NCBI RefSeq assembly: GCF_025717605.1
Contig: NZ_JAJIRQ010000005.1
Location: 62,001-126,000 of the forward strand
Direction of reading: 5' to 3'
Length of the DNA stretch: 64,000 bases
DNA from: Paucibacter sp. TC2R-5
Lineage (GTDB): Bacteria > Pseudomonadota > Gammaproteobacteria > Burkholderiales > Burkholderiaceae_C
Numbering within the stretch: the first letter of the stretch is position 1; every line of letters begins with the position of its first letter. Of the stretch, positions 11,126-30,931 are shown one piece after another. The notes under the pieces are model-generated. The model saw only the letters and a program-made list of their open reading frames with translations, made no database searches and had not been told where the DNA came from. The translations under genes were made by a program, and so were the position numbers.

Positions 11126-12940
11126 TTAAGGCTTCATGGCGCTATGCCCGCTGATCGCGCCGCCCGCGTTGCTGCGCAGGTCCAAGACGATGATCTCGTT
11201 GCTGCCCCGGCGCAGCCAGGGCGCGGGCAGATAGAGGCGCTGCTGCGGGCCGAGCTGCCAAAAGCGGCCCAGATTGTGGCCGTTGACCCAGACCATGCCC
11301 TTGCCAAACTGGCTCAGGTCGAGAAAGGTGTCGGCCGGCTGCTCGATAGAGACGCTGGCCTTGAAGAAGCGGCCCGGCCTGGGGTCAAGTCTTGCCTCGG
11401 GCAGCGTTTGAAGCGTTTGCACCCAGTCTTCGTGCAGCGGCAGCGGATGCATCTGCCAGTTCATCAAGGTCATGCCGGCCAGCGTGACGCGCTCGGTCAG
11501 ACCCTTGCGGTCGATCAAGGCCGGGCCGAAGTTGATGCGGCCCATCGCCTCGACCATGATTTCCAGCAAGGGTTCAGCGGTCTCGGTGGCCGGCAGTTCC
11601 AGGCTGTTCTCGCCCAAGCGCCTGTCCAAGTGGCCAATCAATTGGCCGTCCAGATAGACGCTGGCCAGGTCATGCAGGCCATTCAGCACCAGCTTGCCGC
11701 TGCGCGCGCCAATCAGGCGGGTGCTGTAAAGCATCAAGCCTTGGTAATGCCCCAGCGCTTCAAAAGGTTTGGGATGCGAAGCCTGTCGCGGGGCGGGCAG
11801 CGCCTGCCACAGCGACGCAAAGGCTGTCATCTGCACAGGCGCCAGCGTCATGGTCGGAATCGGCGCGGGCAGCTTGGCCGGCTTGCGGCCGGTCTCTTTC
11901 GCGATCAGGTCGCGCAGCTGAAAGAACTTGTCCCTGGGCCGCCCCTGCTCATCGATGGGCGCATCGTAGTCATAGCTGGTGACGTCGGGCTCATAGCCCT
12001 TGCCGCCCGAGTTGGCGCCGGCGGTGAAGCCGAAGTTCGTGCCGCCATGGGCGACGTAAAAGCTCAAGGACTTGCCCGCCTTGAGCAGGTAGGTGACGTC
12101 GGCCAGCAATTCCTCGCTGCCGGGCCGCGCCCAGTCCTCGCCCCAATGCGTCAGCCAGCCGGGATAAGTCTCGCTGCTGAACACCGGCACGCCGGGATTG
12201 ATCTGCTGGGCTAACTCGAAATGCGCGGCCTCGCTGCCCGAGTCCAGGCCGACCGCGGCGCCGGGCAGGCTGCCGGCCGCCAACATATGCGGCGTCGGGC
12301 CGTCGGCCGTGTAGAAGGGCACCTCGATACCGTTCGAGCGCCACAGCGCCGCCAGTTCCTTCAAATAGGCGCGGTCATTGGCATAGCTGCCGTATTCGTT
12401 CTCGACCTGCAGCATGGCAATCGGCCCGCCGCGTGTGATTTGCAGAGGCGCCAACTCCTTCGCCACCGCCCGCACATAACGTCGCACCGCCTGCATATAG
12501 CGCGGGTCCATGCCGCGCAGGCCTATGTCGGCATGCTTGAGCAAATAGGGCGGCAGACCGCCCAGATCCCATTCGCCGCAGACATAGGGCCCGGGGCGCA
12601 GCAAGACCAGCAGCCCCTCGGCTTGCGCCAGCTTCACGAAACGGGCGATATGGCGGCTGCCGGTCTTGAAATCAAACTTGCCCTCGACCGGCTCGTGATG
12701 GCTCCAGAACAGATAGATGGGCACCGTGTTGCAGCCCATCGCGCGGGCCATTTGCAGGCGATGCTGCCAATATTCGGGCGGGATGCGCGCCGGGTGCATC
12801 TCGCAGCCGATCACCTGCATGGGCTGGCCGTTGAGCAAAAAGTCGTCGCGACCCAGCGTGAAGCTGGCGGCCGCGGCCTGAGCCGCGCTCACGGCCAGCA
12901 GCCCAGCGATCAGGCAGCTCTTGAACAAGCGTGGCCGCAT
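11126..12940 (-). CDS. GH35 beta-galactosidase, exported
   Basis: A 604-residue glycoside hydrolase family 35 enzyme that removes terminal beta-linked galactose. It has a signal peptide (MRPRLFKSCLIAGLLAVSAA) and then the family start FLLNGQPMQVIGCEMHPARI. The acid/base Glu is expected in MLQVENEYGSY and the nucleophile Glu in VFSSETYPGW. C-terminal beta-sandwich domains follow, with GMVWVNGHNLGRFW, a classic GH35 segment. The open frame extends 107 codons upstream, but these overlap the GH109 gene. The ATG at 12940 leaves a 13-base gap after the GH109 stop and starts the signal peptide. Probably co-transcribed with the GH109 gene and acting in the periplasm or outside. Confidence 0.92.
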   Translation of the reverse strand: MRPRLFKSCLIAGLLAVSAAQAAAASFTLGRDDFLLNGQPMQVIGCEMHPARIPPEYWQHRLQMARAMGCNTVPIYLFWSHHEPVEGKFDFKTGSRHIARFVKLAQAEGLLVLLRPGPYVCGEWDLGGLPPYLLKHADIGLRGMDPRYMQAVRRYVRAVAKELAPLQITRGGPIAMLQVENEYGSYANDRAYLKELAALWRSNGIEVPFYTADGPTPHMLAAGSLPGAAVGLDSGSEAAHFELAQQINPGVPVFSSETYPGWLTHWGEDWARPGSEELLADVTYLLKAGKSLSFYVAHGGTNFGFTAGANSGGKGYEPDVTSYDYDAPIDEQGRPRDKFFQLRDLIAKETGRKPAKLPAPIPTMTLAPVQMTAFASLWQALPAPRQASHPKPFEALGHYQGLMLYSTRLIGARSGKLVLNGLHDLASVYLDGQLIGHLDRRLGENSLELPATETAEPLLEIMVEAMGRINFGPALIDRKGLTERVTLAGMTLMNWQMHPLPLHEDWVQTLQTLPEARLDPRPGRFFKASVSIEQPADTFLDLSQFGKGMVWVNGHNLGRFWQLGPQQRLYLPAPWLRRGSNEIIVLDLRSNAGGAISGHSAMKP

Positions 12941-12953
12941 GCCGCCGGCCGAC

Positions 12954-14315
12954 TCAGTATTTGTCGCCAAAGGCGAAGATCGGCTTGCGCGTCTTCCACT
13001 GCCCTTCGGTGAAGTCCGGGAAGGGGAGGGTTTTGAAGCCCTCGGCAATCGACTGCTCGGACAACGGCGTGATGGCACTCCAGGCCACCGCGTCGTAGAC
13101 GTCGATGGGCATGGGCGCGTCGGCTTTGAGCGCTTCGATAAAGGCATTGACGACAAACCAGTCCATGCCACCGTGGCCGGCCTCGGCTGCAGTGGCCGCA
13201 TGCTTCTTCCACAGCGGATGCTCGAATTTGTCCTGGTAGGCCTGGAAGTCCTCCCATTCATGCGGCTTGCTGATGCCCTCGATATGCACCGAGTGGTTCA
13301 GGTCCATCCACAGGCCGTTCGTGCCCTGCACCCGGAAGCCCAGCGAGTAAGGGCGCGGCAGCGAGGTGTCATGCTGCAAGAGAATCGTCTCGCCGTTCTC
13401 GCAGGCCAAGGTGGTGGTGACGATGTCGCCGAGCTTGAAATTGACCTTGGCCGAGGGGTGCTCAGGCTTGCCCATTTTGTTGGAGACAAAGTCGTGCAGA
13501 CCGCGCGCCTTGCTGGCGAAGGCATTGATATGCGTGAAGCGGTTGCCACGGTGGATATTGGTATACATCGCGCAGGGGCCGATGCCATGGCTGGGGTAGA
13601 GCTCGCCATTGCGATCGACCGCATGTTGCGTGCGCCAGCGCGCCTCCGACCAGCCCTTGTCTCCAAACTCGACGCCGCCGCCATAGGGCTTGGTCGGGTC
13701 ACCGGAATTGAACTTCACCGCGCGCAGATCATGCTGATAGCCGCCTTGCAGATGCACCAGCTCGCCGAACATCTGTGCGCGCACCATCTGCAACACCGCC
13801 ATCACATCGCGCCGGTAGCAGACGTTCTCCAACAACATATAGGGCGTGCCGGTGCGCTGCTGGGTGCGCAAGACATCCCAGTGATCTTGCAGCGTGATGC
13901 CAGCGACGACCTCGCAGCCGACCGCGACCTTTGCCTCCATCGCCGCGATGGACATCGCCGCATGCAGCTCCCAGGGCGTGGCGATGATGACCGCGTCCAG
14001 GTCCTTCATCGCCAGCAATTGCAAATAGGCCAGCTTGTCACCGCCCTCGCCAAAGGTCTGCGGCTTGGGGCGTTTGTACTTTTCGGCCATCGCCAAGGCG
14101 CGGCCCAACATGACGGGCTCGATATCGCAAAGCGCCACCACCTCCACGTCGTCGCGGCGCAGCAGCTCCTTCAGCAAGACCTGACCCCGCATGCCGGTGC
14201 CGATCAGGCCTACGCGCAGGCGCGGGCGGGCGGCTGCGGACGCGTTCTTCAGCAAGCCCAAGCTCGCTCCAGCGGCGCCGGAGGACAAGACAAAGTTTCT
14301 GCGGTTCAAGTTCAT
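12954..14315 (-). CDS. GH109 alpha-N-acetylgalactosaminidase (Gfo/Idh/MocA fold)
   Basis: A 453-residue protein with an N-terminal twin-arginine-like signal (NRRNFVLSSGAAGASLG) and a Rossmann NAD site (VGLIGTGMRG, about residues 35-44). Segments match the GH109 family: VIIATPWELHA, LYPSHGIGP, GHGGMDWFV, DVYDAVAWS and PFPDFTEGQW near the end. GH109 enzymes use bound NAD to cleave alpha-linked GalNAc, as on glycoproteins and blood-group A structures. General Gfo/Idh oxidoreductases lack this combination of motifs. It lies directly upstream of the GH35 gene in the same transcript and close to a complete set of GalNAc catabolic genes, which supports the substrate call. Confidence 0.88.
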   Translation of the reverse strand: MNLNRRNFVLSSGAAGASLGLLKNASAAARPRLRVGLIGTGMRGQVLLKELLRRDDVEVVALCDIEPVMLGRALAMAEKYKRPKPQTFGEGGDKLAYLQLLAMKDLDAVIIATPWELHAAMSIAAMEAKVAVGCEVVAGITLQDHWDVLRTQQRTGTPYMLLENVCYRRDVMAVLQMVRAQMFGELVHLQGGYQHDLRAVKFNSGDPTKPYGGGVEFGDKGWSEARWRTQHAVDRNGELYPSHGIGPCAMYTNIHRGNRFTHINAFASKARGLHDFVSNKMGKPEHPSAKVNFKLGDIVTTTLACENGETILLQHDTSLPRPYSLGFRVQGTNGLWMDLNHSVHIEGISKPHEWEDFQAYQDKFEHPLWKKHAATAAEAGHGGMDWFVVNAFIEALKADAPMPIDVYDAVAWSAITPLSEQSIAEGFKTLPFPDFTEGQWKTRKPIFAFGDKY

Positions 14316-14337
14316 GGTGCTAGGTCGGTAATGGATT

Positions 14338-14682
14338 TCAAAATTGGGCCAACAACCAAGCCAGGCCGGCCAAGAGCCATAGCAAGGTGGTCACGGCATT
14401 CAACGCTGCGGTCAAGGGCTTTTGCTGCATTCGCTCCCCGAAGGCCGGGCCGAACAGCCGCGCTGGTTCCAGAGCGAATATAAGGAAGTTCAGACTCGCG
14501 CCAATCCAGAACAGGCCACCGTGCAGGCTCAGCGTTTGGCGCGAAGCCCATAACAGCAGCAATATGAACAGCGCCAAGCCGCCAAACGCGCCCGAAGCTA
14601 TGCGTAGCTTGATGGGCGTCACAGGACTGCCCGCCCTGAGCTGATCATTCTGTTTCGGGTCTGAATCTCTTTTTCGCTGCAT
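14338..14682 (-). CDS. Small three-helix membrane protein
   Basis: A 114-residue hypothetical protein with a charged N-terminus (MQRKRDSDPKQNDQ) and three hydrophobic segments at about residues 30-50, 58-75 and 90-113. The start at 14682 lies 16 bases after the PEP-CTERM stop. An earlier in-frame ATG at 14769 would overlap that gene. No strong Shine-Dalgarno site is visible. It is not a family I recognise. Position between PEP-CTERM and GH109 genes suggests membership of the same transcript. Confidence 0.6.
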   Translation of the reverse strand: MQRKRDSDPKQNDQLRAGSPVTPIKLRIASGAFGGLALFILLLLWASRQTLSLHGGLFWIGASLNFLIFALEPARLFGPAFGERMQQKPLTAALNAVTTLLWLLAGLAWLLAQF

Positions 14683-14698
14683 CGGCAAAAACAAGTGC

Positions 14699-15277
14699 TT
14701 AGAGAATGGCCGGGCGATCCCGCCGCAGCCGCTTGCCCAGCAGCAAAAGCCCCAAGCCCAGCAAAGCATAACTGGCCGGCTCTGGCACAGCGGCGGCCGT
14801 CCAGTCTATGGCGAGCCGGCCAGACTGCCAGCGTCCGTCGGGGCTCAGGCCATCCGACGCCGCTTCGCTGAATTCCAGTCGCAGCACGCCATCGGCGCCG
14901 ACGCTGAAGTCCAAGCCTTGATCGAGCAAATCAATCGAGCCGGTAAAGGACAGGCTGCCGGCAAAGTCGCTGCCGGCACCGGGCGCAAACAGCAGGCCGG
15001 CGCTGCTCGTCTGTGAGCCACTCAGGCTCAGCTGCAAGTCCGACAGCCAACTCGGGTTGTAGGCCTCCAGATTGACTTGCCAGCTGAGGCTGTTGATATG
15101 AGCCAGCGCGCCGAGATTGACGTTCAGGACGGTGTTGGCGGCCGAGCCGATCACGTCCTGGCTATTGATGCCGCTGACATCAAGCGTCAGCACTTCGGCG
15201 CTTGCGGGCATGGCGATGGACGCTGCAGCGGCAAGCGCCAAGCTCCAGCGAGACAGGTATTTCTTCATCATGGGCAT
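14699..15277 (-). CDS. PEP-CTERM sorting-domain protein
   Basis: A 192-residue exported protein with a signal peptide (KKYLSRWSLALAAAASIAMP) and a C-terminal PEP-CTERM tripartite signal: AVPEPASYALL, a hydrophobic helix, then the basic tail KRLRRDR. The mature part is beta-rich and Ser/Gly/Leu-rich, as usual for this class, with no catalytic domain visible. Exosortase/EpsH systems process such proteins for surface or matrix delivery. No exosortase gene lies in this window. It lies six bases downstream of the DUF3472 lipoprotein gene, so it is almost certainly part of the glycan-locus transcript. Confidence 0.88.
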   Translation of the reverse strand: MPMMKKYLSRWSLALAAAASIAMPASAEVLTLDVSGINSQDVIGSAANTVLNVNLGALAHINSLSWQVNLEAYNPSWLSDLQLSLSGSQTSSAGLLFAPGAGSDFAGSLSFTGSIDLLDQGLDFSVGADGVLRLEFSEAASDGLSPDGRWQSGRLAIDWTAAAVPEPASYALLGLGLLLLGKRLRRDRPAIL

Positions 15278-15283
15278 CTCAGT

Positions 15284-16696
15284 TCAAGGCAGGGTGTCGA
15301 GTCGAACGTCGGGCTTGGCGCCGGTCAGCGGGCGTGTGAAGTACTGGCCCGCCGTCACCGTTTCATTGAAGAAGCCGCCATTGCGTAAGAAGAACTTGCC
15401 GCTGGCGTCGACGCCACCGGCATAGTCCAGGCGCTGCTTGTTGTCGCCGGTCGCGTCGACCGTGAAGCGGGCGCGGTTCAGCTCTTTCCAGCTGCCGTCT
15501 TTGTTGACCGCCCATTGCTGGCCATGCAACATCTTGCGTTCTCGCCAACCAAAGTCCCCGTCGAAGTTCTCGGCGAAGGCATAGAAGTCGGTCAGCCAAG
15601 TATTGATGTTAGGCCGCGTCCAGGTCGCAATGAAATGCCATTGGCCGTGTTCGGGCGCAAAAAACCAGGCCGAGTACAGGCTGGCACCTTGGCCGTCGGG
15701 CCGCACGCGGGTGATGAACTTATAGGTATTGCCGGCCACCCAGGGGTAGAGCAGGTAGGACTGGCCGCCTGTGCCTTCGCCGCCAAAGTCATTGACGACA
15801 ACGTCCTGGCCTTTCTTGACCAAGGTGGTTTTGCCGCCACCGTCCGGGTCCCAGACCGAGAACAGCACGCGGCGCTCGTCTGGCCCGTTCACCTGTATGC
15901 CCATATAGCCCTGGCCGAAGCCATTGGCCATGAAATAGGAGCCGATCGGGTCTTCGCCGACGGGGATTTGCAACTCGCTATAGGCGTACTCGGTATTGGC
16001 CGGCACGGCGTAGGACAGATGTACCGAGGGGCCACGGCGCGACCAGTAGTAGTCGTCCGGCGCGTTGGCATATTGCAGGCCGGTGGCGGCCGTGCCGCTT
16101 AGCTCGATCGCGGTCAAGTTGCCGAACGCTGCTCCGGTGCGCTTGAGCCCTTGCACATCGATCTTGACGTAGCCGGCCTGGGCCACGTCCACGGTGGCTA
16201 AGCTGGTGACTTGCCCTGTGCCAGCATTCAGGCGCTGGGTAAAACTCTTGCCCAGCGCCGTGATGCGCAGCGTGCTCACGCCGCCAGCCGGCGCACTGCC
16301 CTTGAGCACGATATTGAACTTGCCCGGCTGCGCGACGCGCACATAAGTGCTGATCACCGTGGCCGGGTCGGTCCAGTCCATCAGGCCTTCTTCATTCGAG
16401 ATCCACTCTGTCGTGTCGGGGCCGGCTGCGGTGATGTAGGCATTGCCGCCCAGGGCGACCAGCGGTGAGCGGGCTTTGACGGGCGCTGCGGTCGGGGCCG
16501 CCAAGGCATGCGCTGTCGGGCCAGCGGCGGCTGCAGGCGCTGCCAGCGCAGGCGCCTCGGCTTCAGCGACGTTGCCGCCGCCACAGGCTGCGAGCGACAG
16601 CAGCAACAGGGCGCTGAAGGTGAATTTCCGCGCAGCAGAGATCGGCTGTCTGGTCTGTATGGGCTTGAGGGGTTCGATTGCTTGATGCTGAGGCAT
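15284..16696 (-). CDS. DUF5077/DUF3472 lipoprotein of the glycan locus
   Basis: About 470 residues from the ATG at 16696 (an alternative start is 16741). The signal sequence ends in a lipobox LAAC followed by GGG. An N-terminal beta-sandwich resembling DUF5077 (about residues 85-205) is followed by a DUF3472-type domain with YYWSRRGPSVHLSY, GSYFMANGFGQGYMGIQVNG and VLFSVWDPD. DUF3472 proteins are common beside carbohydrate-degrading genes and are suspected to bind or act on glycans, but no activity is established. Here it lies between the TonB-dependent receptor and the PEP-CTERM protein, so a surface glycan-binding role is a reasonable inference. Confidence 0.8.
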   Translation of the reverse strand: MPQHQAIEPLKPIQTRQPISAARKFTFSALLLLSLAACGGGNVAEAEAPALAAPAAAAGPTAHALAAPTAAPVKARSPLVALGGNAYITAAGPDTTEWISNEEGLMDWTDPATVISTYVRVAQPGKFNIVLKGSAPAGGVSTLRITALGKSFTQRLNAGTGQVTSLATVDVAQAGYVKIDVQGLKRTGAAFGNLTAIELSGTAATGLQYANAPDDYYWSRRGPSVHLSYAVPANTEYAYSELQIPVGEDPIGSYFMANGFGQGYMGIQVNGPDERRVLFSVWDPDGGGKTTLVKKGQDVVVNDFGGEGTGGQSYLLYPWVAGNTYKFITRVRPDGQGASLYSAWFFAPEHGQWHFIATWTRPNINTWLTDFYAFAENFDGDFGWRERKMLHGQQWAVNKDGSWKELNRARFTVDATGDNKQRLDYAGGVDASGKFFLRNGGFFNETVTAGQYFTRPLTGAKPDVRLDTLP

Positions 16697-16807
16697 GGGC
16701 TGGCGAGCCTTTCTTTGAACTGAACTGAGGATGCCGCGCACAGCGGCGCCCGACCCGCCAGAAGCTGGCGGGCCAAGCGTGGCTATGCGTGGATCAGGGG
16801 CTGAGTC

Positions 16808-19747: not shown

Positions 19748-19827
19748 CTTTTGTTCTCCGGTTGAAGGCGGTCAGACCCATCTGCCGCCTAGTTCTTAAG
19801 TTATTGCCGCCCCTTTTTTTGAGGGGT

Positions 19828-22800: not shown

Positions 22801-23283
22801 CTGTTGGTTGTCGGCCCGGTAGAGCGCCAGGCGCAGCGGCTTCTTGTTGATGCGCAGCGCCAGGCTGTCGGTTTGGAGCAGGTAGTGGTCGCCCTGATCG
22901 CTGAGCTTGTGCGCGATGGATGCACCCTCAGCGTGGGCTGCTAGGCTTTCGGGCAGCACGATGGGCGCGGCCTTGTCTTCGCTGGCCGCAAATTGGCCGG
23001 TGGCGCTCGCTTCGATGCGCAGCACATCGGCCCGCAGCAAGCTGATGCGCAGCCTGGCCTTGCCTTCGGCGCGCAAGTCCCATTGCGGGGCGGCTTGCTG
23101 GCCTGTGGCGCCTTCGATGACCTGCTTGGATTGGGGCAGGGCCACCAACTCGCGCAGATTGCCCAGTGAGGCCGCCGCAGCGCGGTCGGCCTGCAGCAAG
23201 CCGATGACGATCAATGCCGCCATGCTGGTGGCTCTTCTGATGGCCGATGTCTTGCCGGTTTGCGAGTGCAAGCGATGCTTCAT
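19828..23283 (-). CDS. GH31 glycosidase, possible alpha-N-acetylgalactosaminidase, with discoidin-like and NPCBM domains
   Basis: An 1151-residue exported enzyme. The order is signal peptide (to about 38), GH31 N-terminal beta-sandwich (about 55-280), catalytic barrel (about 285-610), proximal and distal beta-domains, an F5/8C-like domain (about 850-990) and a C-terminal NPCBM galactose-type binding domain (about 1000-1140). The nucleophile position reads KLDVAW (Asp about 399) rather than the DMNE of alpha-glucosidases. The acid/base is expected in VTWTGD (Asp about 450). The KLDVAW variant and WTENGVDKIKWEVG resemble, from memory, the GH31 subgroup with alpha-N-acetylgalactosaminidase activity. 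The divergent GalNAc genes agree with this, but alpha-glucosidase or alpha-galactosidase activity is not excluded. Confidence 0.85.
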   Translation of the reverse strand: MKHRLHSQTGKTSAIRRATSMAALIVIGLLQADRAAAASLGNLRELVALPQSKQVIEGATGQQAAPQWDLRAEGKARLRISLLRADVLRIEASATGQFAASEDKAAPIVLPESLAAHAEGASIAHKLSDQGDHYLLQTDSLALRINKKPLRLALYRADNQQLLWRETESLDLSDKLSVQTLSSDKSERFFGGGQQNGRFEFKGKQLEVSYSGGWEEGDRPSPAPFLMSSKGWGILRNSWRDGSYDLRQNERITLAHQDGRFDAFIFAGPSIREVLARYTELTGRAKMLPRWAYEYGDADCYNDGDNVKKPGTVPKGWSDGPTGKTPDVIESVAKKYREHDMPGGWILPNDGYGCGYTDLPKVVSGLSELGFRTGLWTENGVDKIKWEVGTAGTRAQKLDVAWTGAGYQFAMDANQSAYQGILDNSDARPFLWTVMGWAGIQRYAVTWTGDQSSSWDYIRWHIPTLIGSALSGQAYATGDVDAIFGGSPETFTRDLQWKTFTPVLMGMSGWAAQARKHPWAYEEPYRSINRKYLKLKLRLTPYMYGLAQEAEASGAPIVRGLMWDHPKDPNAATEAHKYQFLLGRDLLVAPVFRSQAASQGWRKNIYLPQGLWFDYWDGRQVQAGQAGKTVDLQVTLDKLPVFVRAGAILPMYPEVLFDGQKPKDQLTLDLYPQGESSYTLYEDDGLTRQYSEQGKSSRQVILMTAPTQGAGDIRVKVGPVQGDYAGQEPQRSLALIVHSRAKPQAVELGGQVLPESGDQATFDAATQAWWFDANDKFGTVHIKTPKRSIRHAAEFTLQISPDTALAKGEDFPAAPVLGRQVPVDSLTVVNRPGEEPGHAIENAFDGKPETWFRTTRNQAMRAGPHEWVLGLGERRMIDGFEIAPRNDKHWKHGQVRDYEVYLGDNNGDWGQPVQVGQLKLQEGLQTVTFAKPAAGRLLRFRVLSTHNAEVDQASAKVDEMVTAAATQAPVAKAFNALAPSEVEPIVLSEFHVLEQRAAEGLDEQQQRYLSELRLPKGIAKDRPASGAEAMRMNGLRFQQGLGFGAQDRLDLSLQGNWDLFRADLGIDDSCRSNGGLQFQIWGDERLLYDSGLVQAPAVVKPEIDVRGLTSLSLRTLGAVGKDAKKVCANWANAALVGGAKAKVEVIQGRKR

Positions 23284-23366
23284 GCCTGTGTTTTCCCTGG
23301 CCTATGGCGGCCTTGATCAAAATGACTTGGTCGAACTCTAGGCACCCGACTTGCAACAGTCAATTG

Positions 23367-23387
23367 AGTGAAAGTCAGACCGAAAGA
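23367..23387. promoter_or_regulatory. Candidate AgaR operator, GH31 side
   Basis: AGTGAAAGTCA is followed by GACCGAAAG. The first part is repeated exactly at 23597-23607 and the CGAAAG core recurs before agaR. It lies 84-104 bases upstream of the GH31 start. Confidence 0.45.
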
Positions 23388-23428
23388 TATACGGCGAAAT
23401 ATAGTGAAAACCACTAGAAATAATCATA

Positions 23429-23440
23429 TGAAACGAAAAA
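23429..23440. promoter_or_regulatory. Candidate AgaR half-site, centre of divergent region
   Basis: TGAAACGAAAAA shares AAACGAAA with the right arm of the inverted repeat before agaR (27180-27188). Confidence 0.3.
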
Positions 23441-23580
23441 ATCATCGCGACTTCGGCGTTGATTCGGCCCATTAAGTGTTGAGCTAATTTGGTGTTTCGC
23501 GAGCTATAGCTGCAATCCGCGCGTTCTGTGCTTGCGATTCCTGGTCTCGATTGGCTCTTGAAATTTGTTCTTTCTTTTTT

Positions 23581-23607
23581 CTTTCGACTTTGCTAAAGTG
23601 AAAGTCA
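23581..23607. promoter_or_regulatory. Candidate AgaR operator, agaS side
   Basis: CTTTCGACTTT is followed by AAAGTGAAAGTCA, giving an inverted GACTTT/AAAGTC pair (23586-23591 and 23601-23606). CTTTCG matches the left arm of the agaR operator. It lies 58-84 bases before the agaS start and overlaps the presumed -10 element. Confidence 0.45.
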
Positions 23608-23664
23608 AATTGCCTGTCGGCGATCTCGCTCGACTGTCTTCACCGTCTGTTTCCACTGCGCTCA

Positions 23665-24879
23665 ATGAACCCATTACTGACCCGTTCCCGCGATGACTGG
23701 CAGGCCCAAGGTGGCCTGTCAACGGCCGAGGAGATTGCCCAGCAGCCGATGGTGTGGCGCGAGCTGGCGCAGTCCTTGGGCCCCGCGCAGCAAGCGGCCT
23801 TGGCGGCTTTTCTCGAGGCATGGCTGCGCGAGCCAAGTCATCAGGTCATCCTGACCGGCGCCGGTAGCTCGGCCTATTGCGGTGAGGGCGTGGTCGATGA
23901 AATCAACCGCCTGTGGCCTGCGCAGGTGCGCGCGGTGCCGACCACCAGCCTGATCTCGCATCCGGCGCTCTATTTGCGCCGCGATCAGCCGACGCTCTTG
24001 GTGTCTTTCGCGCGCAGCGGCAACAGCCCGGAGAGTTTGGGTGCCGTCGATCTTGTGCGTCAGCTGGTGGATCAGCCGCGTTTCTTGAACATTACATGCA
24101 ATGCCGACGGCGCCTTGTTCTCGCGCAATGGCGCCAAGCGTGACAGCTTCAATCTCCTGATGCCCGCTCGTTCTTGTGACCGGGGCTTCGCGATGACCAG
24201 CAGCTTCACTTGCATGCAGTTGGCGGCACTGCTCGCTTTCGGGCGCGACAGCTGGGACGCGCGGCTGGCGCGTGTCGAAGCGCTGGCGACGCAGGCCGAG
24301 CGGCTGCTGCGCGACTGGGCGGCGCCGCTGGCCGCTTTGGCGCAAGAGCCGTTTGCGCGCCTGGTCTATTTGGGCAGCGGGCCGCTGGAGGCCTTGGCCA
24401 AAGAGTCGGCCTTGAAGATCCTGGAGCTGACCTGTGGCCATGTGCTGGCTTTCGCCAACACCTGCCTGGGCTTTCGTCATGGCCCCAAGTCGATTCTGAA
24501 CGAGAACACCTTGGTGATGGTGTTCCCGTCCAGCGACGCCCATGTCCGCAAGTTTGACGCCGACCTGGTGGCCGAGCTTCAGCGCGAGGGCGTGGCGGGG
24601 CGTGTCTTGCAAGTGGGGCTTGTGGCGCCGGCTGGATCAGACTCCCCGGCCGACCTCATTGCGCCCGCCGGCAATTTGCTGTGCAGCGTCGGCGCCGAGC
24701 TGGCGGCCGCGGACGACTGTTGGCTGGCGCCCTTGTGGTTGTTGGCGGCGCAGCAATATGCGCTGCACCGTTCCGCCGCACTGGGGCTGACCCCGGACAA
24801 CCCCTTCCCCGACGGCACCGTCAACCGCGTCGTTCAAGGCGTCACCCTTCACGCTTATGTCGCAGCCGTCCAGCACTGA
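23665..24879 (+). CDS. agaS: AgaS-type sugar-phosphate isomerase/deaminase (two SIS domains)
   Basis: A 404-residue cytoplasmic enzyme with two SIS (sugar isomerase) domains. The first has LTGAGSSAYCGEGV and VSFARSGNSPESLG, and the second has YLGSGPLEALAKESALKILE and FRHGPKSIL. AgaS deaminates and isomerises galactosamine 6-phosphate to tagatose 6-phosphate in the GalNAc pathway. Length agrees with E. coli AgaS (384). It is the first gene of the plus-strand catabolic operon and its 3' end overlaps the kinase gene by 23 bases. The enzyme is related to GlmS isomerase domains, but the neighbours decide for AgaS. Confidence 0.9.
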   Translation: MNPLLTRSRDDWQAQGGLSTAEEIAQQPMVWRELAQSLGPAQQAALAAFLEAWLREPSHQVILTGAGSSAYCGEGVVDEINRLWPAQVRAVPTTSLISHPALYLRRDQPTLLVSFARSGNSPESLGAVDLVRQLVDQPRFLNITCNADGALFSRNGAKRDSFNLLMPARSCDRGFAMTSSFTCMQLAALLAFGRDSWDARLARVEALATQAERLLRDWAAPLAALAQEPFARLVYLGSGPLEALAKESALKILELTCGHVLAFANTCLGFRHGPKSILNENTLVMVFPSSDAHVRKFDADLVAELQREGVAGRVLQVGLVAPAGSDSPADLIAPAGNLLCSVGAELAAADDCWLAPLWLLAAQQYALHRSAALGLTPDNPFPDGTVNRVVQGVTLHAYVAAVQH

Positions 24880-25801
24880 GGGCATGCTTTACGGTGTCGA
24901 CATCGGCGGCACCAAAATGGAGCTGGTGGCCTACCAAGGGGCGGACTTGACCGAGCGCTGGCGGCGCCGTGTCGACACGCCGACAAGGGATTTCACCGCC
25001 TTTGTTGAAGCGCTGGCGGGCTTGGTGGAGGCGGCCGATGCGAGCCTGGGTCAGCGCGGCGCCATCGGCTTGGGGCTGCCCGGCGTGGTCGACCCGCGCA
25101 GCGGCTTGCAGCTCAGTTCCAATGTGCCGGCGCTGAACGGGCAAGCGGTGGCGCCGGCCTTGACGGCGCGCTTGCAGCGCCCGGTGGTGATAGGCAATGA
25201 CTGCCAGTGTTTCGCGCTGTCCGAGGCTTGCGGTGGCGCGGCGGCCGGCGCCGAGAGCATGTTTGGCGCCATCTTGGGCACCGGCGCCGGGGGCGGCTAT
25301 TGTGTCGGCGGGCGCTTGCTGCGCGGCTACAACAGCCTGGCCGGCGAGTGGGGCCATTGCAGCTTGCCCGCCACCCTGCGAGAGCAGCACGGCCTGCCGC
25401 TCTGGCCCTGTGCATGCGGACTAAACGCTTGTTTGGAGCGTTATGTGTCCGGCAGCGGGCTGGCCGCGCTGTACCGATATTTTGGCGGGCCGGCGCTTGA
25501 TGCGGCCGCCATCAATGCACAGGCCGAGGCGGGTGAGGCCTTGGCGCAGCGCACGCTGGCCGTGCATCTGGACCTGCTCGCCCACGGCCTGGCCGGGCTG
25601 GTGCTGGTCTTGGACCCGCATGTGATCGTGCTGGGCGGCGGCCTGTCCAAGCTGCAGCGCCTGTACCGCGATCTTCCTGCCGCCGTGGCGCGCCATTTGT
25701 TTGCCGGCGCGCGCGTGCCGCAGATTCTGCCGCCCGCGTTTGGTGACGCCGGCGGCACGCGCGGTGCGGCCTTGTTGGCGCGGCAACAGCAGCAGCAATA
25801 A
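24857..25801 (+). CDS. agaK: ROK-family hexosamine kinase, probable GalNAc kinase
   Basis: A 314-residue ROK kinase. It has the N-terminal ATP phosphate-binding motif YGVDIGGTKMEL, the ROK signature region LGTGAGGGYCVGG, EWGHCSLP, and the zinc-binding CACGLNACLERY. The last motif and overall form resemble NagK-type N-acetylhexosamine kinases. In this operon, GalNAc 6-phosphorylation is the expected job because import is by an MFS porter rather than a phosphotransferase system. The start at 24857 overlaps agaS. An internal ATG at 24884 (MLYGVDIGG) is an alternative without overlap. The C-terminus ends in a run of glutamines. Confidence 0.85.
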   Translation: MSQPSSTEGMLYGVDIGGTKMELVAYQGADLTERWRRRVDTPTRDFTAFVEALAGLVEAADASLGQRGAIGLGLPGVVDPRSGLQLSSNVPALNGQAVAPALTARLQRPVVIGNDCQCFALSEACGGAAAGAESMFGAILGTGAGGGYCVGGRLLRGYNSLAGEWGHCSLPATLREQHGLPLWPCACGLNACLERYVSGSGLAALYRYFGGPALDAAAINAQAEAGEALAQRTLAVHLDLLAHGLAGLVLVLDPHVIVLGGGLSKLQRLYRDLPAAVARHLFAGARVPQILPPAFGDAGGTRGAALLARQQQQQ

Positions 25802-25830
25802 CAGTCCATTCCCAATTTCTGAGAACCTCC

Positions 25831-27165
25831 ATGTCGCATCTTCTTGACATCATCAGCGCCCACCGCCAAGGCCGGCCGGTCGGCATCTACAGCGTCTGCT
25901 CGGCCAACGAATATGTGTTGCGGGCCGCCTTTGAACAAGCGGCGCGTTACGGCACGCCCTTGTTGATCGAGTCAACCTCGAACCAGGTCGACCAGTTCGG
26001 CGGCTATACCGGCATGAACCCCGTGCAGTTCCGAAGCTATGTCCTGAAGCTCGCCGAAGAGGCCGGCTTCCCACCAGAGCGTTTGGTGTTGGGCGGTGAC
26101 CACCTCGGCCCCAATGCCTGGCAGCATCTGCCGGCCGCCGAGGCGATGGGTTTTGCGACCGAGTTGATCCGCAGCTATGTGGCGGCGGGCTTCGAGAAGA
26201 TCCATCTCGATTGCAGCATGGCTTGCGCGGATGATCCCAAACGGCTGCCGGACGCAGTAGTGGCCGAGCGCTCGGCGCAATTGGCCCTGGTGGCCGAAGC
26301 CGCTGCACAGGCTGCTGGTTTGCCGGCGCCGGTCTATGTGATCGGCACCGAAGTGCCCATTCCCGGTGGCGAGGCTTCGCTGGGCGCCGGCGTGGCGGTG
26401 ACCACGCCTGCGGCGGCAGCGGCCACCTTGGCCGTGCACGCGGCCGCCTTTGCCGCCCATGGGCTGCAGTCTGCTTGGCAACGAGTGATTGCAATGGTGG
26501 TACAGCCGGGTGTGGACTTCGATCACAGCCAGATCCAGCATTACGAGCCCGCTGCCGCGACCGCGCTGTCTAACTTCGTCGCTCAGCAGATGGATCCGCC
26601 GGCGCTGGTCTTCGAGGCGCATTCGACCGATTACCAAACCGAGAGCGCCATGCATGCGCTGGTGCGCGATCATTTTGCGATCCTGAAAGTCGGCCCGGCG
26701 GTCACCTTTGCGCTGCGCGAGGCCTGGTTTGCCTTGGCGGCGATCGAGCGCGAGATCGTCCCGTTTGGGCGGCAGTCGCAGTTGCCGGCGGTGCTGGAGC
26801 AGCGCATGCTGGCCGAGCCCAAACATTGGCTCAAGCATTACGCCGGCACGCCGGCTCAGCAACATCTGCTGCGCGCTTATGCGCTGAGCGACCGCTGCCG
26901 CTACTACTGGGGCGATGCGGCCGTGCTGGCCGCCGTGGCCAAGCTGATCGCCAATTTGGAGCAGCAGCCTATTCCCTTGCCCCTGCTGAGCCAATACCTG
27001 CCCGAGCAGTTCGATGCGGTACTTGCCAGCGATTTGGCGGCCCAGCCTCGCGCGCTGGCCCAGCACAAGGTGGGCATGGTGCTGGCGCGTTATGCGCGGG
27101 CCTGCAGCCGCAACCGGCATGCCGCAAGCGAAAGTACCAATGCTCAAAATCTTTCGTTTGCATAA
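25831..27165 (+). CDS. agaZ: Tagatose-bisphosphate aldolase accessory subunit (GatZ/KbaZ/AgaZ family)
   Basis: A 444-residue member of the GatZ/KbaZ/AgaZ family with GIYSVCSANEYVL, ESTSNQVDQFGGYTGM, GGDHLGPNAW and HLDCSMACADD. In E. coli such proteins are needed for full activity and stability of the class II tagatose-1,6-bisphosphate aldolase (GatY/KbaY). The family has also been annotated as a putative tagatose-6-phosphate kinase. Neither an aldolase catalytic subunit nor a separate tagatose-6-phosphate kinase gene is present in this window. Those steps must be encoded elsewhere, or this protein does more than its usual label says. A GAGAA site precedes the ATG. Confidence 0.88.
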   Translation: MSHLLDIISAHRQGRPVGIYSVCSANEYVLRAAFEQAARYGTPLLIESTSNQVDQFGGYTGMNPVQFRSYVLKLAEEAGFPPERLVLGGDHLGPNAWQHLPAAEAMGFATELIRSYVAAGFEKIHLDCSMACADDPKRLPDAVVAERSAQLALVAEAAAQAAGLPAPVYVIGTEVPIPGGEASLGAGVAVTTPAAAAATLAVHAAAFAAHGLQSAWQRVIAMVVQPGVDFDHSQIQHYEPAAATALSNFVAQQMDPPALVFEAHSTDYQTESAMHALVRDHFAILKVGPAVTFALREAWFALAAIEREIVPFGRQSQLPAVLEQRMLAEPKHWLKHYAGTPAQQHLLRAYALSDRCRYYWGDAAVLAAVAKLIANLEQQPIPLPLLSQYLPEQFDAVLASDLAAQPRALAQHKVGMVLARYARACSRNRHAASESTNAQNLSFA

Positions 27166-27188
27166 AATGCTTGCTGTCAAAACGAAAG
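27151..27188. promoter_or_regulatory. Inverted-repeat operator in front of agaR
   Basis: A perfect 9-base inverted repeat, CTTTCGTTT (27151-27159) and AAACGAAAG (27180-27188), with a 20-base spacer. Arm centres are 29 bases apart, close to three helical turns. A -10-like TAAAAT (27163-27168) lies in the spacer. The agaR start codon is 16 bases beyond the right arm. This fits autoregulation by a DeoR-type repressor. Related motifs occur at 23367-23387 and 23581-23607. Confidence 0.65.
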
Positions 27189-27204
27189 AGTTGAAAAGTA
27201 AGCC

Positions 27205-27996
27205 ATGAGCAAGAACGAAAAGCCGCCAAGCCGCAATACCGGCCAGCGTCGTGAGCAAATCATGCAGTTGCTGATGGAGCAGGGGCGCGTGGATGTGTCG
27301 GACTTGGCGCCCAAGCTGGGCGTATCCACGGTGACGATTCGCAGCGATCTGGCCGCTTTCGAGGAGCAGGGCCTGGTCACGCGCAGCTACGGCGGCGCCG
27401 CGCTCAAGCGCATGCCGCCCCAAGAACACAATATTCGCCAGAAAGACGGCTTGAATAGCAGCCTGAAGGAGCGCATCGGCACGCGTGCCGCCCAGATGGT
27501 CAACTCGGGCGACAACATCATCATCGACTCCGGCACCACGACGATGGCCTTGGCCCACCACCTGCGCGAGCTGCGCAATGTGACGGTGATGACCAACGGC
27601 CTGAACATTGCTTGGGAGCTGGCCGATGCCGAGGGCGTCGAGCTGATGCTGACCGGCGGCCTCTTGCGCAAGAAGTCGCTGTCCATCCTGGGCACGCAGG
27701 CCGAGGCCTGCTTGGGCGGCTATATCTTTGACAAACTCTTTCTCGGCGTGGACGGCTGCGACCTGCAGTTCGGCTTGACCACCCACCATGAGGCGGAAGC
27801 CAGGCTCAATCACATGATGGTGGAGCGGGCCAAAAAGGTCATCGTGCTGAGTGACTCCAGCAAGTTTGGCCGCGTCAGCTTGCACCGCATCGTGCAGCTC
27901 GACCGTGTGCATACCTTGATCACCGACGCCGGCATCAGCAGCGAGTACCGCGACGGCCTGCAGCGTTTAGGCATAGAGCTGATCATCGTCGAATGA
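27205..27996 (+). CDS. agaR: DeoR/GlpR-family repressor of GalNAc catabolism
   Basis: A 263-residue DeoR-family regulator. The N-terminal helix-turn-helix has the family pattern RREQIMQLLMEQGRVDVSDL then STVTIRSDL. The C-terminal sugar-phosphate sensor domain contains VNSGDNIIIDSGTTTMALA and DKLFLGVDGCD. DeoR repressors usually respond to phosphorylated sugars, here probably galactosamine or tagatose 6-phosphate. Its stop overlaps the agaA start by four bases (ATGA), so the two are translationally coupled. The inverted repeat just upstream is the likely autoregulatory site. Confidence 0.9.
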   Translation: MSKNEKPPSRNTGQRREQIMQLLMEQGRVDVSDLAPKLGVSTVTIRSDLAAFEEQGLVTRSYGGAALKRMPPQEHNIRQKDGLNSSLKERIGTRAAQMVNSGDNIIIDSGTTTMALAHHLRELRNVTVMTNGLNIAWELADAEGVELMLTGGLLRKKSLSILGTQAEACLGGYIFDKLFLGVDGCDLQFGLTTHHEAEARLNHMMVERAKKVIVLSDSSKFGRVSLHRIVQLDRVHTLITDAGISSEYRDGLQRLGIELIIVE

Positions 27997-29099
27997 AAAC
28001 AAGGCCAAACAGCTTGTCGGGACGCATCCTGACGCCGGGCGGCTGGCTGCTCGGCCGGATCGAATTCGCGGAGCATGTACTCAATATTTACCCCGATGCT
28101 GACGCACCATCCGAGCTGAGCATTCTGCCGGGCTTCGTGGACCTGCATGTGCATGGCGGCGCGGGTGTGGACATCATGCAGGGCGGTGATACGGCGGTGC
28201 AGGTCGCGCGCGCCCATGCCCAGCACGGCACGACGGTGATCTTGGGCACGACCATGACCGCCAGCCCGGCCGCTATTGAACATGCCTTGGAGGGCTTGGC
28301 GGAGGCGATCTCACAGCGCGCGCCCGGCACGGCCCGCATCCTCGGCGTGCATCTGGAAGGCCCTTTCATCAGCGAGAAGCGCCTGGGCGCTCAGCCCAAT
28401 CTGGTCTGCTCGGCGACGCTGGAGCAGGTCTTGCATTACCACTCGATTGCGCCGATCAAGGTCTTGACCCTGGCGCCCGAACTGAGCGGGCACTTGGCAT
28501 TGATCCCGCAACTCAAAGAGTTGGGTATCCGCGTGCAGATCGGCCATTCGGCCGGCAGTTATGAAGAGGGGCTGGCGGCGCTGCAAGCCGGCGTTGCGGG
28601 CTTCACCCATCTGTTCAACGGCATGACGCCGCTGAATCATTACCAGCCCGGCATGGTCGGTGCGGCCCTGGCCCATGCCGAATATGCGGAGTTGATTCCA
28701 GATCTGCAGCATGTGCATCCAGGTGCGATGCGCGCCGCCATCCGCGCCATCCCCAAGCTCTTTTGCGTCACCGATGCAACGGCCGCCACCGGCATGCCGG
28801 ACGGTGAATATGCGCTGGGCTCGCAAACGGTGATGAAGTGTCTGGGCTGCGTGCGTCTTGCTTCTGGGTCGTTGGCCGGCAGCGCCTTGACGATGGACCA
28901 GGCGCTGCGTAATTTGGTCTCCATCGGTCTTGATCTGGCGGCTGCGTCGAACTGCCTGTCCCGCCACCCGGCCGACTATCTGGGACTGCCCGATCGCGGC
29001 CGCATTGCGCCGGGCGCCTGGGCCGACTTTGTCGTCTTGGATGCCGATCTGCAAGTGCAGACCGTCGTCATCGAAGGTGAATTGGTTTCTCTCGTTTGA
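27993..29099 (+). CDS. agaA: N-acetylgalactosamine-6-phosphate deacetylase (NagA family)
   Basis: A 368-residue amidohydrolase of the NagA family, removing acetate from an N-acetylhexosamine 6-phosphate. Motifs are PGFVDLHVHGGAGVD (metal-binding His pair region), GVHLEGPFIS (metal Glu), IGHSAGSYEEG (metal His), THLFNGMTPLNH and CVTDATAATGMPDG (catalytic Asp). NagA and AgaA cannot be told apart by motifs alone. The operon of agaS, agaZ and agaR favours the GalNAc 6-phosphate substrate. Start codon overlaps agaR. Confidence 0.9.
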   Translation: MKTRPNSLSGRILTPGGWLLGRIEFAEHVLNIYPDADAPSELSILPGFVDLHVHGGAGVDIMQGGDTAVQVARAHAQHGTTVILGTTMTASPAAIEHALEGLAEAISQRAPGTARILGVHLEGPFISEKRLGAQPNLVCSATLEQVLHYHSIAPIKVLTLAPELSGHLALIPQLKELGIRVQIGHSAGSYEEGLAALQAGVAGFTHLFNGMTPLNHYQPGMVGAALAHAEYAELIPDLQHVHPGAMRAAIRAIPKLFCVTDATAATGMPDGEYALGSQTVMKCLGCVRLASGSLAGSALTMDQALRNLVSIGLDLAAASNCLSRHPADYLGLPDRGRIAPGAWADFVVLDADLQVQTVVIEGELVSLV

Positions 29100-29119
29100 C
29101 CGTTCAAGGAACGACCCGC

Positions 29120-30931
29120 ATGAATGCACCCGCTTTCGCCATACCCATGGCCGCCAATGATTCGCCCAAAGTCTGGTCTATGCGCTTCATGCTCTTTATC
29201 GCCGGCATGGGCGGCCTGCTCTACGGCATCGACATCGGCATCATCGCCGGCGCGCTGCCCTATCTGGAGTCCACCGCCTCGGTAACGTGGCGTTTGAGCG
29301 CACAGCAGCTTGGCTTTATCGTGGCGGCCGTGCTCTTGGGCAGCGTCTTGTCGTCCTTGTTTGCTGGGGCGCTGGCCGATTGGGTCGGCCGTAAGAAGGT
29401 GATGGTGCTGAGTGGCTTGTTGTTCACCTTGAGCATCCCCATCATTGCCTTGGCCGACGGTTACACGCCGCTGCTGCTGGGGCGTTTGCTGCAAGGCATC
29501 AGCGGCGGCTTGATTGGCGTGGTGGTGCCGCTATACCTGGCCGAATGCCTGACGGCCGACAAGCGCGGGCGCGGCACCGCGATGTTTCAACTCTTGTTGA
29601 CGATAGGCCTGGTGGTGGCGGCCTTGATCGGCCTTTACTACGCCCGCGAGGTGGAGACCTTCGCCGGCGGCAGTGGGGACGCCTTGTTCGCGGCCAAGGA
29701 CCAGGCTTGGCGCAGCATTTTCTGGATTTGCCTTGCCCCTGGTTTGGTTTTTACCGTCGGCTGCTTGTTCCTGAGTGAGTCGCCGCGCTGGTTGGTCGGG
29801 CGCGGCCGCCCGGCCGATATCCGCGCTGCGCGGGCCGCGCTCTTGCGCAGCCGCAGTGCGGCAGCCACCGAGCAAGAGCTCAGCGATATGCAGCAGGCCC
29901 GAGCGATATCGACCGGCACGGCGGGTCAAAGCCAAAGCGCGCGCGAGCCTTTGCTGAGCCGGCGCTATCTGGTGCCCTTTGTCTTGGCCTGCGTGATCCT
30001 GGCCTGCACCCAGGCGACCGGCATCAACTCGATCTTGGCCTATGTGGTGAACATCTTGAATCAAGCCGGCTTGAGCGGATCGACGGCCAATTCGGCCGAC
30101 GTGGCCATCAAGGTTTTGAACGCAGTGATGACCGTGGTGGCGCTGCTGCTGGTGGACCGCAAGGGGCGCAAATTCCTCTTGATGCTGGGCAGTGGTGGCA
30201 TCTTTTTGTCTTTGATTTTGGCCGGCAGTTTGTTCTGGTCGGCCGAGCGGGGCCGCGTTGACGTGACGCCGACCCTGCAGCAGCTGGTGCAGCAAGACCG
30301 CCTGCAGCTGAGTGTCGATGCTGCCGGCCTGGCCCGGCTCGGTGTGGCCGCAGGCGGCGCCCCGCAACAGCTGACCCTGTCCTACGCCTTCGGCGACTTC
30401 AGCAATGTGCAGAGCCGGCGCAGCGACGAACTGGATGCCCGGCCGATCGAGATTTCACGCGAGCACACAGTGCAAGCCGACAGCGTGATCGGGGCCTTCT
30501 TTCGCCGCCTGCATCTGAACCCCTTTGCCGACCCCGTCAGCGCTGCCAGCGCGCCTTTGGTCATTACGCAGGCCCTGGTCGGCCCGGTGCCCAGCGCCAC
30601 CCATGGCTGGCTGGTGACGGCTTGCATCTTCGCCTTTGTGGCCTTCTTCGCGGTGGGGCCGGGCGTGTGTGTCTGGCTGGCGCTGTCGGAGCTGATGCCC
30701 ACGCGCATTCGCTCCAACGGCATGAGTATTGCCTTGCTGATCAATCAGTTTGTGTCCACCACGATCGCGGCGGTGTTCTTGCCTACCGTCGGCAATCATG
30801 GTTATGCGGCGATGTTCTTTTTCTGGGCCGGCTGTACGGTGGTCTATTTCTTGGTGGCGGCTTTTGTATTGCCGGAGACCAAGGGCAAGACGCTGGAGCA
30901 GATCGAGGCGCATTTCGCGCGTCGGCGCTGA
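29120..30931 (+). CDS. MFS sugar porter with large insertion, probable GalNAc importer
   Basis: About 603 residues with the 12-helix major facilitator fold of the sugar porter family. Typical motifs are DIGIIAGALP, DWVGRKK, GGLIGVVVPLYLAE, SPRWLV, QATGINSILAY and PETKGKTLEQIE. A soluble-looking segment of about 130 residues (about 370-500) is inserted after helix 9, before the last three helices, so the protein is about 130 residues longer than usual. The expected side is periplasmic. AAGGA at 29106-29110 lies nine bases before the ATG at 29120, so the upstream TTG at 29096 is less likely. As last gene of the operon it is the obvious inner-membrane importer of GalNAc or a related sugar. Confidence 0.88.
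   Translation: MNAPAFAIPMAANDSPKVWSMRFMLFIAGMGGLLYGIDIGIIAGALPYLESTASVTWRLSAQQLGFIVAAVLLGSVLSSLFAGALADWVGRKKVMVLSGLLFTLSIPIIALADGYTPLLLGRLLQGISGGLIGVVVPLYLAECLTADKRGRGTAMFQLLLTIGLVVAALIGLYYAREVETFAGGSGDALFAAKDQAWRSIFWICLAPGLVFTVGCLFLSESPRWLVGRGRPADIRAARAALLRSRSAAATEQELSDMQQARAISTGTAGQSQSAREPLLSRRYLVPFVLACVILACTQATGINSILAYVVNILNQAGLSGSTANSADVAIKVLNAVMTVVALLLVDRKGRKFLLMLGSGGIFLSLILAGSLFWSAERGRVDVTPTLQQLVQQDRLQLSVDAAGLARLGVAAGGAPQQLTLSYAFGDFSNVQSRRSDELDARPIEISREHTVQADSVIGAFFRRLHLNPFADPVSAASAPLVITQALVGPVPSATHGWLVTACIFAFVAFFAVGPGVCVWLALSELMPTRIRSNGMSIALLINQFVSTTIAAVFLPTVGNHGYAAMFFFWAGCTVVYFLVAAFVLPETKGKTLEQIEAHFARRR

Follow-up and report, generated by a model that had tools for sequence, protein, structure and literature searches.

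The stretch of DNA analyzed here, 64,000 nucleotides from Paucibacter sp. TC2R-5 and hereafter called the window, raises the question whether the genes between positions 11,126 and 30,931 form one system for N-acetylgalactosamine (GalNAc) and, if so, which glycan that system serves. The locus consists of two divergent gene sets flanking a control region of 381 bp, with glycan-degrading and outer-membrane functions on one side and the aga genes of GalNAc catabolism on the other (Table 1). From the gene families present, their conserved linkage and the enrichment of a short repeat in the control region, we consider it highly probable that the genes form a self-contained locus for the use of alpha-GalNAc glycans, controlled by a single repressor, AgaR. 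A preliminary description of the window had listed the genes with their positions and strands and had joined the two sets by a single control region; all genes that it named were present as placed, small corrections apart, and the same layout recurred in all ten relatives that have a true AgaS as well as in 31 of the 78 loci collected around GH31. As the observation that would speak against it, the description had named homologous loci whose minus-strand genes are never found together with the aga genes, and these counts came out in its favor.

The linkage was followed in two samples. Among the 59 genomes searched, the window's own included, AgaS with at least 58% identity was detected in 11, the remaining matches being weak SIS-domain ones of at most E 1e-8. 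GH31 at E < 1e-100 occurred in the same 11 genomes and as a fragment in a 76%-complete genome (G002), and GH109 in the same 11 as well as in G007 and G015. In each of the 11 genomes with true AgaS, the genes for AgaS, the kinase, AgaZ, AgaR and AgaA diverge from the set of GH31, receptor and GH109; one of these loci (G011) lies on two contigs and was pieced together with further sequence, and the counts of single parts given below for the 11 loci refer to the flanks fetched. The second sample came from one scan of a species-genome collection with a GH31 alignment and comprised at least 78 loci; all counts out of 78 are among the loci listed, presence calls rest on bit-score limits that we set, and the sample, being anchored on GH31, says nothing on aga loci that lack this enzyme. 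AgaS was present in 41 of the 78 loci and was accompanied by both receptor and GH109 in 31, hereafter the core loci, all of which are divergent. Eight core loci belong to genomes already among the relatives and 23 are further ones; grouped from record titles, they fall into Sphaerotilaceae (10), Oxalobacteraceae (15) and Lysobacteraceae (6). The ten non-core loci with AgaS comprise truncated contigs, a locus in which GH109 lacks a matching receptor (L066), and loci whose AgaS is more distant; five of the latter come from Rheinheimera or a gammaproteobacterial metagenome-assembled genome (MAG) and are without receptor or GH109 of this type. The nearest named relatives by AgaS are Paucibacter/Roseateles of the Sphaerotilaceae; the cultured Paucibacter oligotrophus (L061) has the same locus. 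In the AgaS tree, from which no claim of transfer is made, the Oxalobacteraceae rows cluster, as do the Lysobacteraceae rows, and those of the Sphaerotilaceae are not united in a single group; row L072 (486 aa, branch length 10) is an artefact of open reading frame (ORF) choice and was disregarded. The hosts named are Roseateles/Paucibacter, Massilia, Duganella, Janthinobacterium, Lysobacter and Pseudoxanthomonas, which we take to be mostly environmental genera.

The control region of the window contains five CTTTC/GAAAG words as compared to a mean of 0.44 in stretches of the same size from the window, two of them just upstream of the predicted GH31-arm promoter TTGACT-17-TAGAGT and three before agaS. 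AgaR was reportedly described with a CTTTC motif in a proteobacterial aga study of 2012, and AgaR of Escherichia coli releases DNA when GalNAc phosphate appears. When the control regions of the 31 core loci and the window were taken together, CTTTC occurred 208 times, as compared to 53.8 times (sd 6.7, maximum 69) in 200 shuffles; each of the 32 regions held at least three copies, and the nine remaining permutations of these letters were found between 10 and 56 times. A looser form of the GH31-arm promoter was present in 26 of the 31 core loci, a count made without background control. In the non-core loci, the 450 bp before GH31 were scored wherever enough upstream sequence was available (46 of 47 loci, without L123): L066, L117 and L131, the three that have a close-type aga set, carried 8, 6 and 6 words, whereas 39 of the other 43 carried 0–2, which indicates that the repeat tracks this type of aga set and not GH31. 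The spaced pattern CTTTC-N7-CTTTC was rejected as a genome-wide finder of the AgaR regulon: it matched nine times, including once in the control region of the window, which was not distinguishable from chance when the same word read backwards served as control, and we make no claim of a wider regulon. With at most two mismatches, the palindrome TAGTGAAAACCACTA was recovered in six of the 31 core loci; it has three to five in the other 25, like background stretches, and hence is an element of the nearest clade only.

On the aga side, AgaR, AgaZ and the NagA-type deacetylase AgaA pass their curated NCBIfam cut-offs (Table 1). The inner-membrane step is served by a major facilitator superfamily (MFS) porter in seven and by a ribose-type ATP-binding cassette (ABC) importer in four of the 11 AgaS loci, and by these in 28 and three of the 31 core loci, respectively. 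The importer lies between agaS and GH31 in L036, L037, L039 and L040, where the MFS porter is missing, so that a non-homologous system takes over the inner-membrane step. At 611 aa, the MFS porter is long; its Sugar_tr match falls into two stretches, and the median length in 30 loci is the same.

Release of GalNAc can be assigned to two enzyme families. The preliminary description had named the GH31 protein without an activity; it is placed here nearest to a solved Enterococcus alpha-N-acetylgalactosaminidase, since the best three distinct solved sequences are this enzyme and its variants (6m76, 7f7q and 7f7r, E 1.6e-119 to 1.9e-118, over residues 73–774), followed by the next GH31 at only 2.2e-55. 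Asp399 in the motif KLDVAW and Asp450 in the motif WTGDQ align with the corresponding residues of the solved enzyme and are invariant across 10 GH31 sequences; we take them to be the catalytic nucleophile and acid/base pair. The solved proteins, presumably from Enterococcus faecalis, share this pair and, unlike the window's GH31, are annotated as LPXTG cell-wall anchored. The window's GH31 is thus predicted to belong to the EfNag31A-type alpha-N-acetylgalactosaminidases. GH109 combines a PF01408 NAD-binding fold with the C-terminal domain PF21252, retains Glu149, Tyr225, His228 and Tyr307 of its solved match 2ixa, an alpha-N-acetylgalactosaminidase, presumably the active-site residues, and is probably exported by the twin-arginine translocation (Tat) pathway, as its N-terminus suggests. 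Because the nearest solved relatives of GH31 are alpha-N-acetylgalactosaminidases, two unrelated families with this predicted activity stand beside a GalNAc pathway. In Bacteroides thetaiotaomicron, BT4243-GH109 seems to favor small products and blood group A, and BT3169-GH31 is active on mucin only once it is de-sialylated (PMC11992087). By analogy to these enzymes, the window's GH31 probably acts on peptide-linked, Tn-like GalNAc and GH109 on smaller or terminal alpha-GalNAc. In two relatives (L036:11341-15740 from G011, and G008:C22:266531-270921), agaA is followed by a tandem pair of M13-family peptidases, which may point to glycopeptide substrates.

The GH35 beta-galactosidase is distributed differently. 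It was found in three of the 11 AgaS loci, the window included, and in three of the 41 AgaS-bearing GH31-anchored loci, two of these with only 44% identity, and it was ruled out as a core part on these counts. The galactose side is therefore optional, and the substrate is better described as alpha-GalNAc, sometimes capped by beta-Gal. Of the dedicated galactose-GalNAc glycan system put forward in the preliminary description, GalNAc capture and catabolism are well supported by the conserved linkage, the shared control region and the two predicted alpha-N-acetylgalactosaminidase families, while the galactose part does not hold as a general feature.

At the outer membrane, a TonB-dependent receptor was present in all 11 AgaS loci. 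It reached 44.8 bits with the SusC/RagA model TIGR04056, for which the cut-off is 368, and no SusD family was detected among the locus proteins scanned; membership in the Sus-type polysaccharide utilisation loci (PULs) of Bacteroidota was rejected on these grounds, and the locus is PUL-like in its working yet not Sus-type. The DUF3472/DUF5077 lipoprotein is, as judged from its sequence, a candidate surface glycan-binding or glycan-acting protein. It was found in nine of the 11 AgaS loci, with none in G006 and G012, and was over the limit in 16 of the 78 GH31-anchored loci, all of them within the 41 with AgaS. Its solved relative 4qhw is without stated function, weaker ones (8pmu, 8pn3 and 8pn5) are named just DUF3472, and the literature search brought up no functional study of a DUF3472 protein from bacteria. 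Glycan contact is supported by one of the nine proteins (L038:15256-17259), in which DUF3472 is fused to ricin-type lectin domains; L072 encodes a protein 60% identical to this fusion. The PEP-CTERM protein was present in five of the 11 loci and is an extra of some Roseateles/Paucibacter loci outside the conserved unit; an exosortase EpsH is encoded elsewhere in the genome (PF09721, 5.5e-66) and PF07589 is over its cut-off, as PEP-CTERM sorting calls for. The surface lipoprotein and the PEP-CTERM protein had been regarded earlier as parts of one undescribed unit; undescribed it is in the open-access literature searched, but the PEP-CTERM protein does not belong to it. A second TonB-type outer-membrane protein (OMP_b-brl_4 with CarboxypepD_reg; L063:16528-19698 and four kin) lies between receptor and DUF3472 gene in some loci.

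Following this, we propose that the DUF3472/DUF5077 lipoprotein holds alpha-GalNAc glycans or glycopeptides at the cell surface, from where the glycan would cross the outer membrane via the TonB-dependent receptor, as the class and linkage of the latter suggest. GH35 would remove the beta-Gal cap where present, GH31 and the probably Tat-exported GH109 would release GalNAc, and the MFS porter or, in some relatives, the ABC importer would import it. Subsequently, the ROK kinase would phosphorylate GalNAc, AgaA would deacetylate GalNAc phosphate and AgaS would deaminate and isomerise the product to tagatose-6-phosphate, which a housekeeping phosphofructokinase (PFK) would phosphorylate and a class II aldolase aided by AgaZ would split. 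AgaR would bind the CTTTC repeats at both divergent promoters and let go in response to GalNAc phosphate.

Several observations weigh against this proposal. AgaS stays under the curated TIGR02815 cut-off (397 vs. 529 bits, match over residues 17–398 of 404). The catalytic aldolase subunit KbaY/AgaY is not encoded in the locus; since AgaZ thus occurs without it, the single class II aldolase of the genome (PF01116) lies on another contig and there are two PFK-family genes, we attribute the final two reactions to housekeeping enzymes. Regarding the repeat, the window alone displays a modest excess, five words where dinucleotide shuffles of its control region give 1.6 (P 0.019), and among the 5-mers of the control regions CTTTC is outnumbered by CGAAA alone (225), which overlaps it as CTTTCG, so that the true word may be longer. 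Moreover, four non-core loci reach three to five words without a close-type aga set (L113, 3; L129, 3; L138, 4; L130, 5), seven loci with a distant AgaS (37–42% identity) have 0–2 words upstream of GH31, and CTTTC is taken to be the AgaR word after the consensus reportedly given in the 2012 study. Finally, GH109 homologs of 79–81% identity are found in L142 and L143 (G007 and G015), both without AgaS or GH31.

Could the two gene sets simply be neighbors, i.e., an aga operon and an unrelated operon for glycan or metal uptake that diverge by chance? The plug region of the receptor resembles siderophore receptors, which is usual for the superfamily and would fit metal uptake, but the divergence is kept in 31 of 31 core loci from three families, CTTTC clusters lie near both starts, and GH31 and AgaS co-occur across the 59 genomes with the exception of one GH31 fragment. 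The conserved divergence and the shared repeats led us to reject this explanation, the probability of which we regard as negligible.

Provided that the locus is one alpha-GalNAc system, the nature of its substrate has to be weighed. The preliminary description had proposed core-1 O-glycans (Gal-beta-1,3-GalNAc) of animal mucins with GH35 as an integral first step, and the position of GH35 directly downstream of GH109 and the M13 peptidases inside the cluster of two relatives are in line with this. Furthermore, a beta-1,3-galactosidase accompanies GH109 in the BT4240-50 PUL, and the B. thetaiotaomicron GH31 acts on de-sialylated mucin (PMC11992087). Nevertheless, the scarcity of GH35 contradicts an integral role, and no sialidase, fucosidase or M60-type family was detected among the locus proteins scanned, which makes this substrate rather doubtful. 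The spread over the host genera listed above, presumably environmental for the most part, likewise argues against animal mucin and is in better agreement with an alpha-GalNAc glycan of non-animal origin, for instance a glycoprotein or surface polysaccharide of bacteria or algae in fresh water or soil. The lack of a mucin-specific peptidase family in the window's protein set points in the same direction; nothing in the sequence identifies the aglycone, however, and the B. thetaiotaomicron GH31 acts on mucin GalNAc (PMC11992087), so we regard a non-animal glycan as plausible, with chances slightly short of even.

Comparison with known systems indicates that the parts of this alpha-GalNAc utilisation locus are known and that the combined package is new relative to the two closest ones. 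The BT4240-50 PUL likewise unites an outer-membrane receptor, a surface glycan-binding lipoprotein, a beta-galactosidase, a GH109 alpha-N-acetylgalactosaminidase, a putative inner-membrane sugar transporter and a GalNAc kinase; features of its own are SusC/SusD, a GH2 enzyme, an M60-like peptidase and sigma/anti-sigma genes, with the GH31 (BT3169) outside the PUL (PMC11992087). The window locus differs by a non-SusC receptor, the absence of SusD, GH31 inside the locus, the DUF3472 lipoprotein, AgaS-AgaZ-AgaA and AgaR. The Shewanella aga system (agaP, agaK, agaA-II, agaS and omp-Aga) shares the kinase, deacetylase and AgaS for GalNAc as well as a TonB-type outer-membrane protein, omp-Aga, but the passages describing it list no alpha-N-acetylgalactosaminidase (PMC2996990), whereas the control region in the window serves two such families, the DUF3472 lipoprotein and, in some loci, GH35. 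The CUT loci (carbohydrate utilization loci containing TonB-dependent transporters) of Xanthomonas (PMC1790865) also tie a proteobacterial TonB receptor to the uptake and use of one sugar. The window locus differs from them in its amino-sugar substrate and in having AgaR as repressor. The open-access literature searched yielded no paper describing this arrangement in Proteobacteria, most subscription papers lying outside the search. If the proposal is correct, environmental Proteobacteria would own a complete, self-regulated alpha-GalNAc system that is similar in scope to a mucin PUL of gut Bacteroides and built with different outer-membrane parts. It would also provide new GH31 and GH109 candidates for work on Tn antigen and blood group A, and a functional context, GalNAc glycans, for some DUF3472/DUF5077 lipoproteins.

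A different module was observed beside related GH31 genes. In 12 of the 78 loci (L079, L082, L085, L089, L090, L095, L096, L099, L114, L116, L118 and L119; Undibacterium, Massilia, Pseudoduganella and others), GH31 is 61–67% identical to that of the window and has no aga genes nearby. Instead, these loci encode a 2-keto-3-deoxy-galactonokinase (DGOK, 12 of 12), a LysR regulator (12), RidA (11), a protein of about 400 aa (11), an SDR-family protein (10), a pyridoxal phosphate (PLP)-dependent D-serine-dehydratase-like enzyme (9) and, after flank extension, an OngB-type Amidohydro_3 protein (7), several contigs ending early. An aldolase of the KDPG/KDPGal family is part of the cluster in L079, L114 and the extended L089 region, whereas L116 (Undibacterium umbellatum) and L095 carry one at a greater distance on the contig. 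The 400-aa protein (L116:5044-6339 and nine kin, alignment A3) matched neither Pfam nor NCBIfam, and among solved structures nothing scored better than E 0.027. At a threshold of E 1e-20, AgaS was absent from 10 of 11 side-module genomes (L090 left out), some of them MAGs that are probably incomplete; in G064, a distant AgaS is represented by two fragments. By type, the enzymes correspond to OngB, OngC, OngD and KdgK of the ong pathway of chitin oxidation (PMC9537276), with the difference that the kinase of the side module is of the galacto type. Judged by family, the ong-type set of D-aminoacylase-like deacetylase, PLP deaminase, RidA and 2-keto-3-deoxy sugar kinase occurs together in one cluster in the side module, not in the window. 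Going by these families, the module might convert GalNAc via N-acetylgalactosaminate, galactosaminate and 2-keto-3-deoxygalactonate to pyruvate, as a galacto counterpart of ong. Whether the GH31 alpha-N-acetylgalactosaminidase is a common front end with two back ends, the AgaR-controlled kinase pathway or an unphosphorylated oxidative route, appears evenly balanced to us; if so, the side module would point to a possible unphosphorylated GalNAc route, and no oxidative GalNAc route was found in the literature search at the level of listings.

Table 1. Features of the locus in the window (64,000 nucleotides; positions are those of the window).
Feature	Position	Strand	Evidence
GH35 beta-galactosidase, signal-peptide-like N-terminus	11126..12940	-	PF01301 2.4e-100; best solved matches are beta-galactosidases 6eon and 3d3a
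GH109 NAD-dependent alpha-N-acetylgalactosaminidase (predicted), twin-arginine (Tat-like) N-terminus MNLNRRNFVLSS	12954..14315	-	PF21252 1.3e-81; 2ixa 1.6e-144
Small hydrophobic ORF	14338..14769	-	Translation; 54% identical stretch in relative G012
PEP-CTERM protein (exosortase-type C-terminal signal)	14699..15277	-	PF07589 25.2 bits (cut-off 20.7); TIGR02595 19.9 (cut-off 16)
DUF5077 + DUF3472 lipoprotein, lipobox LSLAAC	15284..16741	-	PF11958 9e-96; PF16871 3.6e-32; 4qhw 3.4e-94 over residues 94-482
TonB-dependent outer-membrane receptor, 979 aa	16808..19747	-	PF00593 7.7e-31; PF07715 2e-21
GH31 alpha-N-acetylgalactosaminidase (EfNag31A type, predicted) + F5/8C + NPCBM domains	19828..23283	-	6m76/7f7r/7f7q E about 1e-119
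Sigma-70-like promoter of GH31 arm, TTGACT-17-TAGAGT	23335..23363	-	Pattern search: 1 found, 0.3 expected
Two CTTTC boxes (23370-23374, 23382-23386), putative AgaR operator, GH31 arm	23370..23386	-	
Imperfect palindrome TAGTGAAAACCACTA	23402..23416	none	Sole exact copy in genome
Three CTTTC/GAAAG boxes (23570-23574, 23581-23585, 23600-23604), putative AgaR operator, aga arm	23570..23604	+	
AgaS, galactosamine-6-phosphate deaminase/isomerase, SIS domain	23665..24879	+	TIGR02815 6.6e-119, under cut-off; 3odp 7.5e-89
ROK-family kinase, probable GalNAc kinase (AgaK role)	24857..25801	+	PF00480 1.4e-60; NCBIfam N-acetylglucosamine kinase 1e-84, under cut-off
AgaZ/KbaZ, non-catalytic subunit of tagatose-bisphosphate aldolase	25831..27165	+	TIGR02810 602 bits (cut-off 569)
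AgaR, DeoR-family repressor	27205..27996	+	NF040755 328 bits (cut-off 260)
AgaA, NagA-like GalNAc-6-phosphate deacetylase	27993..29099	+	TIGR00221 233 bits (cut-off 226); 2vhl 2.5e-54
MFS sugar porter, 611 aa, probable GalNAc permease	29096..30931	+	PF00083 2.4e-83; TIGR00879 270 bits (cut-off 238)

The corrections to the gene calls concern two ORFs. The ORF 11126-13261 of GH35 is over-long, with 107 codons before the likely start ATG at 12940 and its signal-peptide-like stretch, and 308 of its bases overlap GH109 in a different frame. The small ORF between the PEP-CTERM and GH109 genes was missing from the earlier list; its conserved part begins near codon 38, and the identity to the relative G012 given in Table 1 covers codons 38–143. 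Scans of the window for tRNAs and for Rfam families at the gathering score were both empty. A nucleotide cyclase with AAA and TPR domains (30947-33949) adjoins the locus and stays beside it in five of ten relatives.

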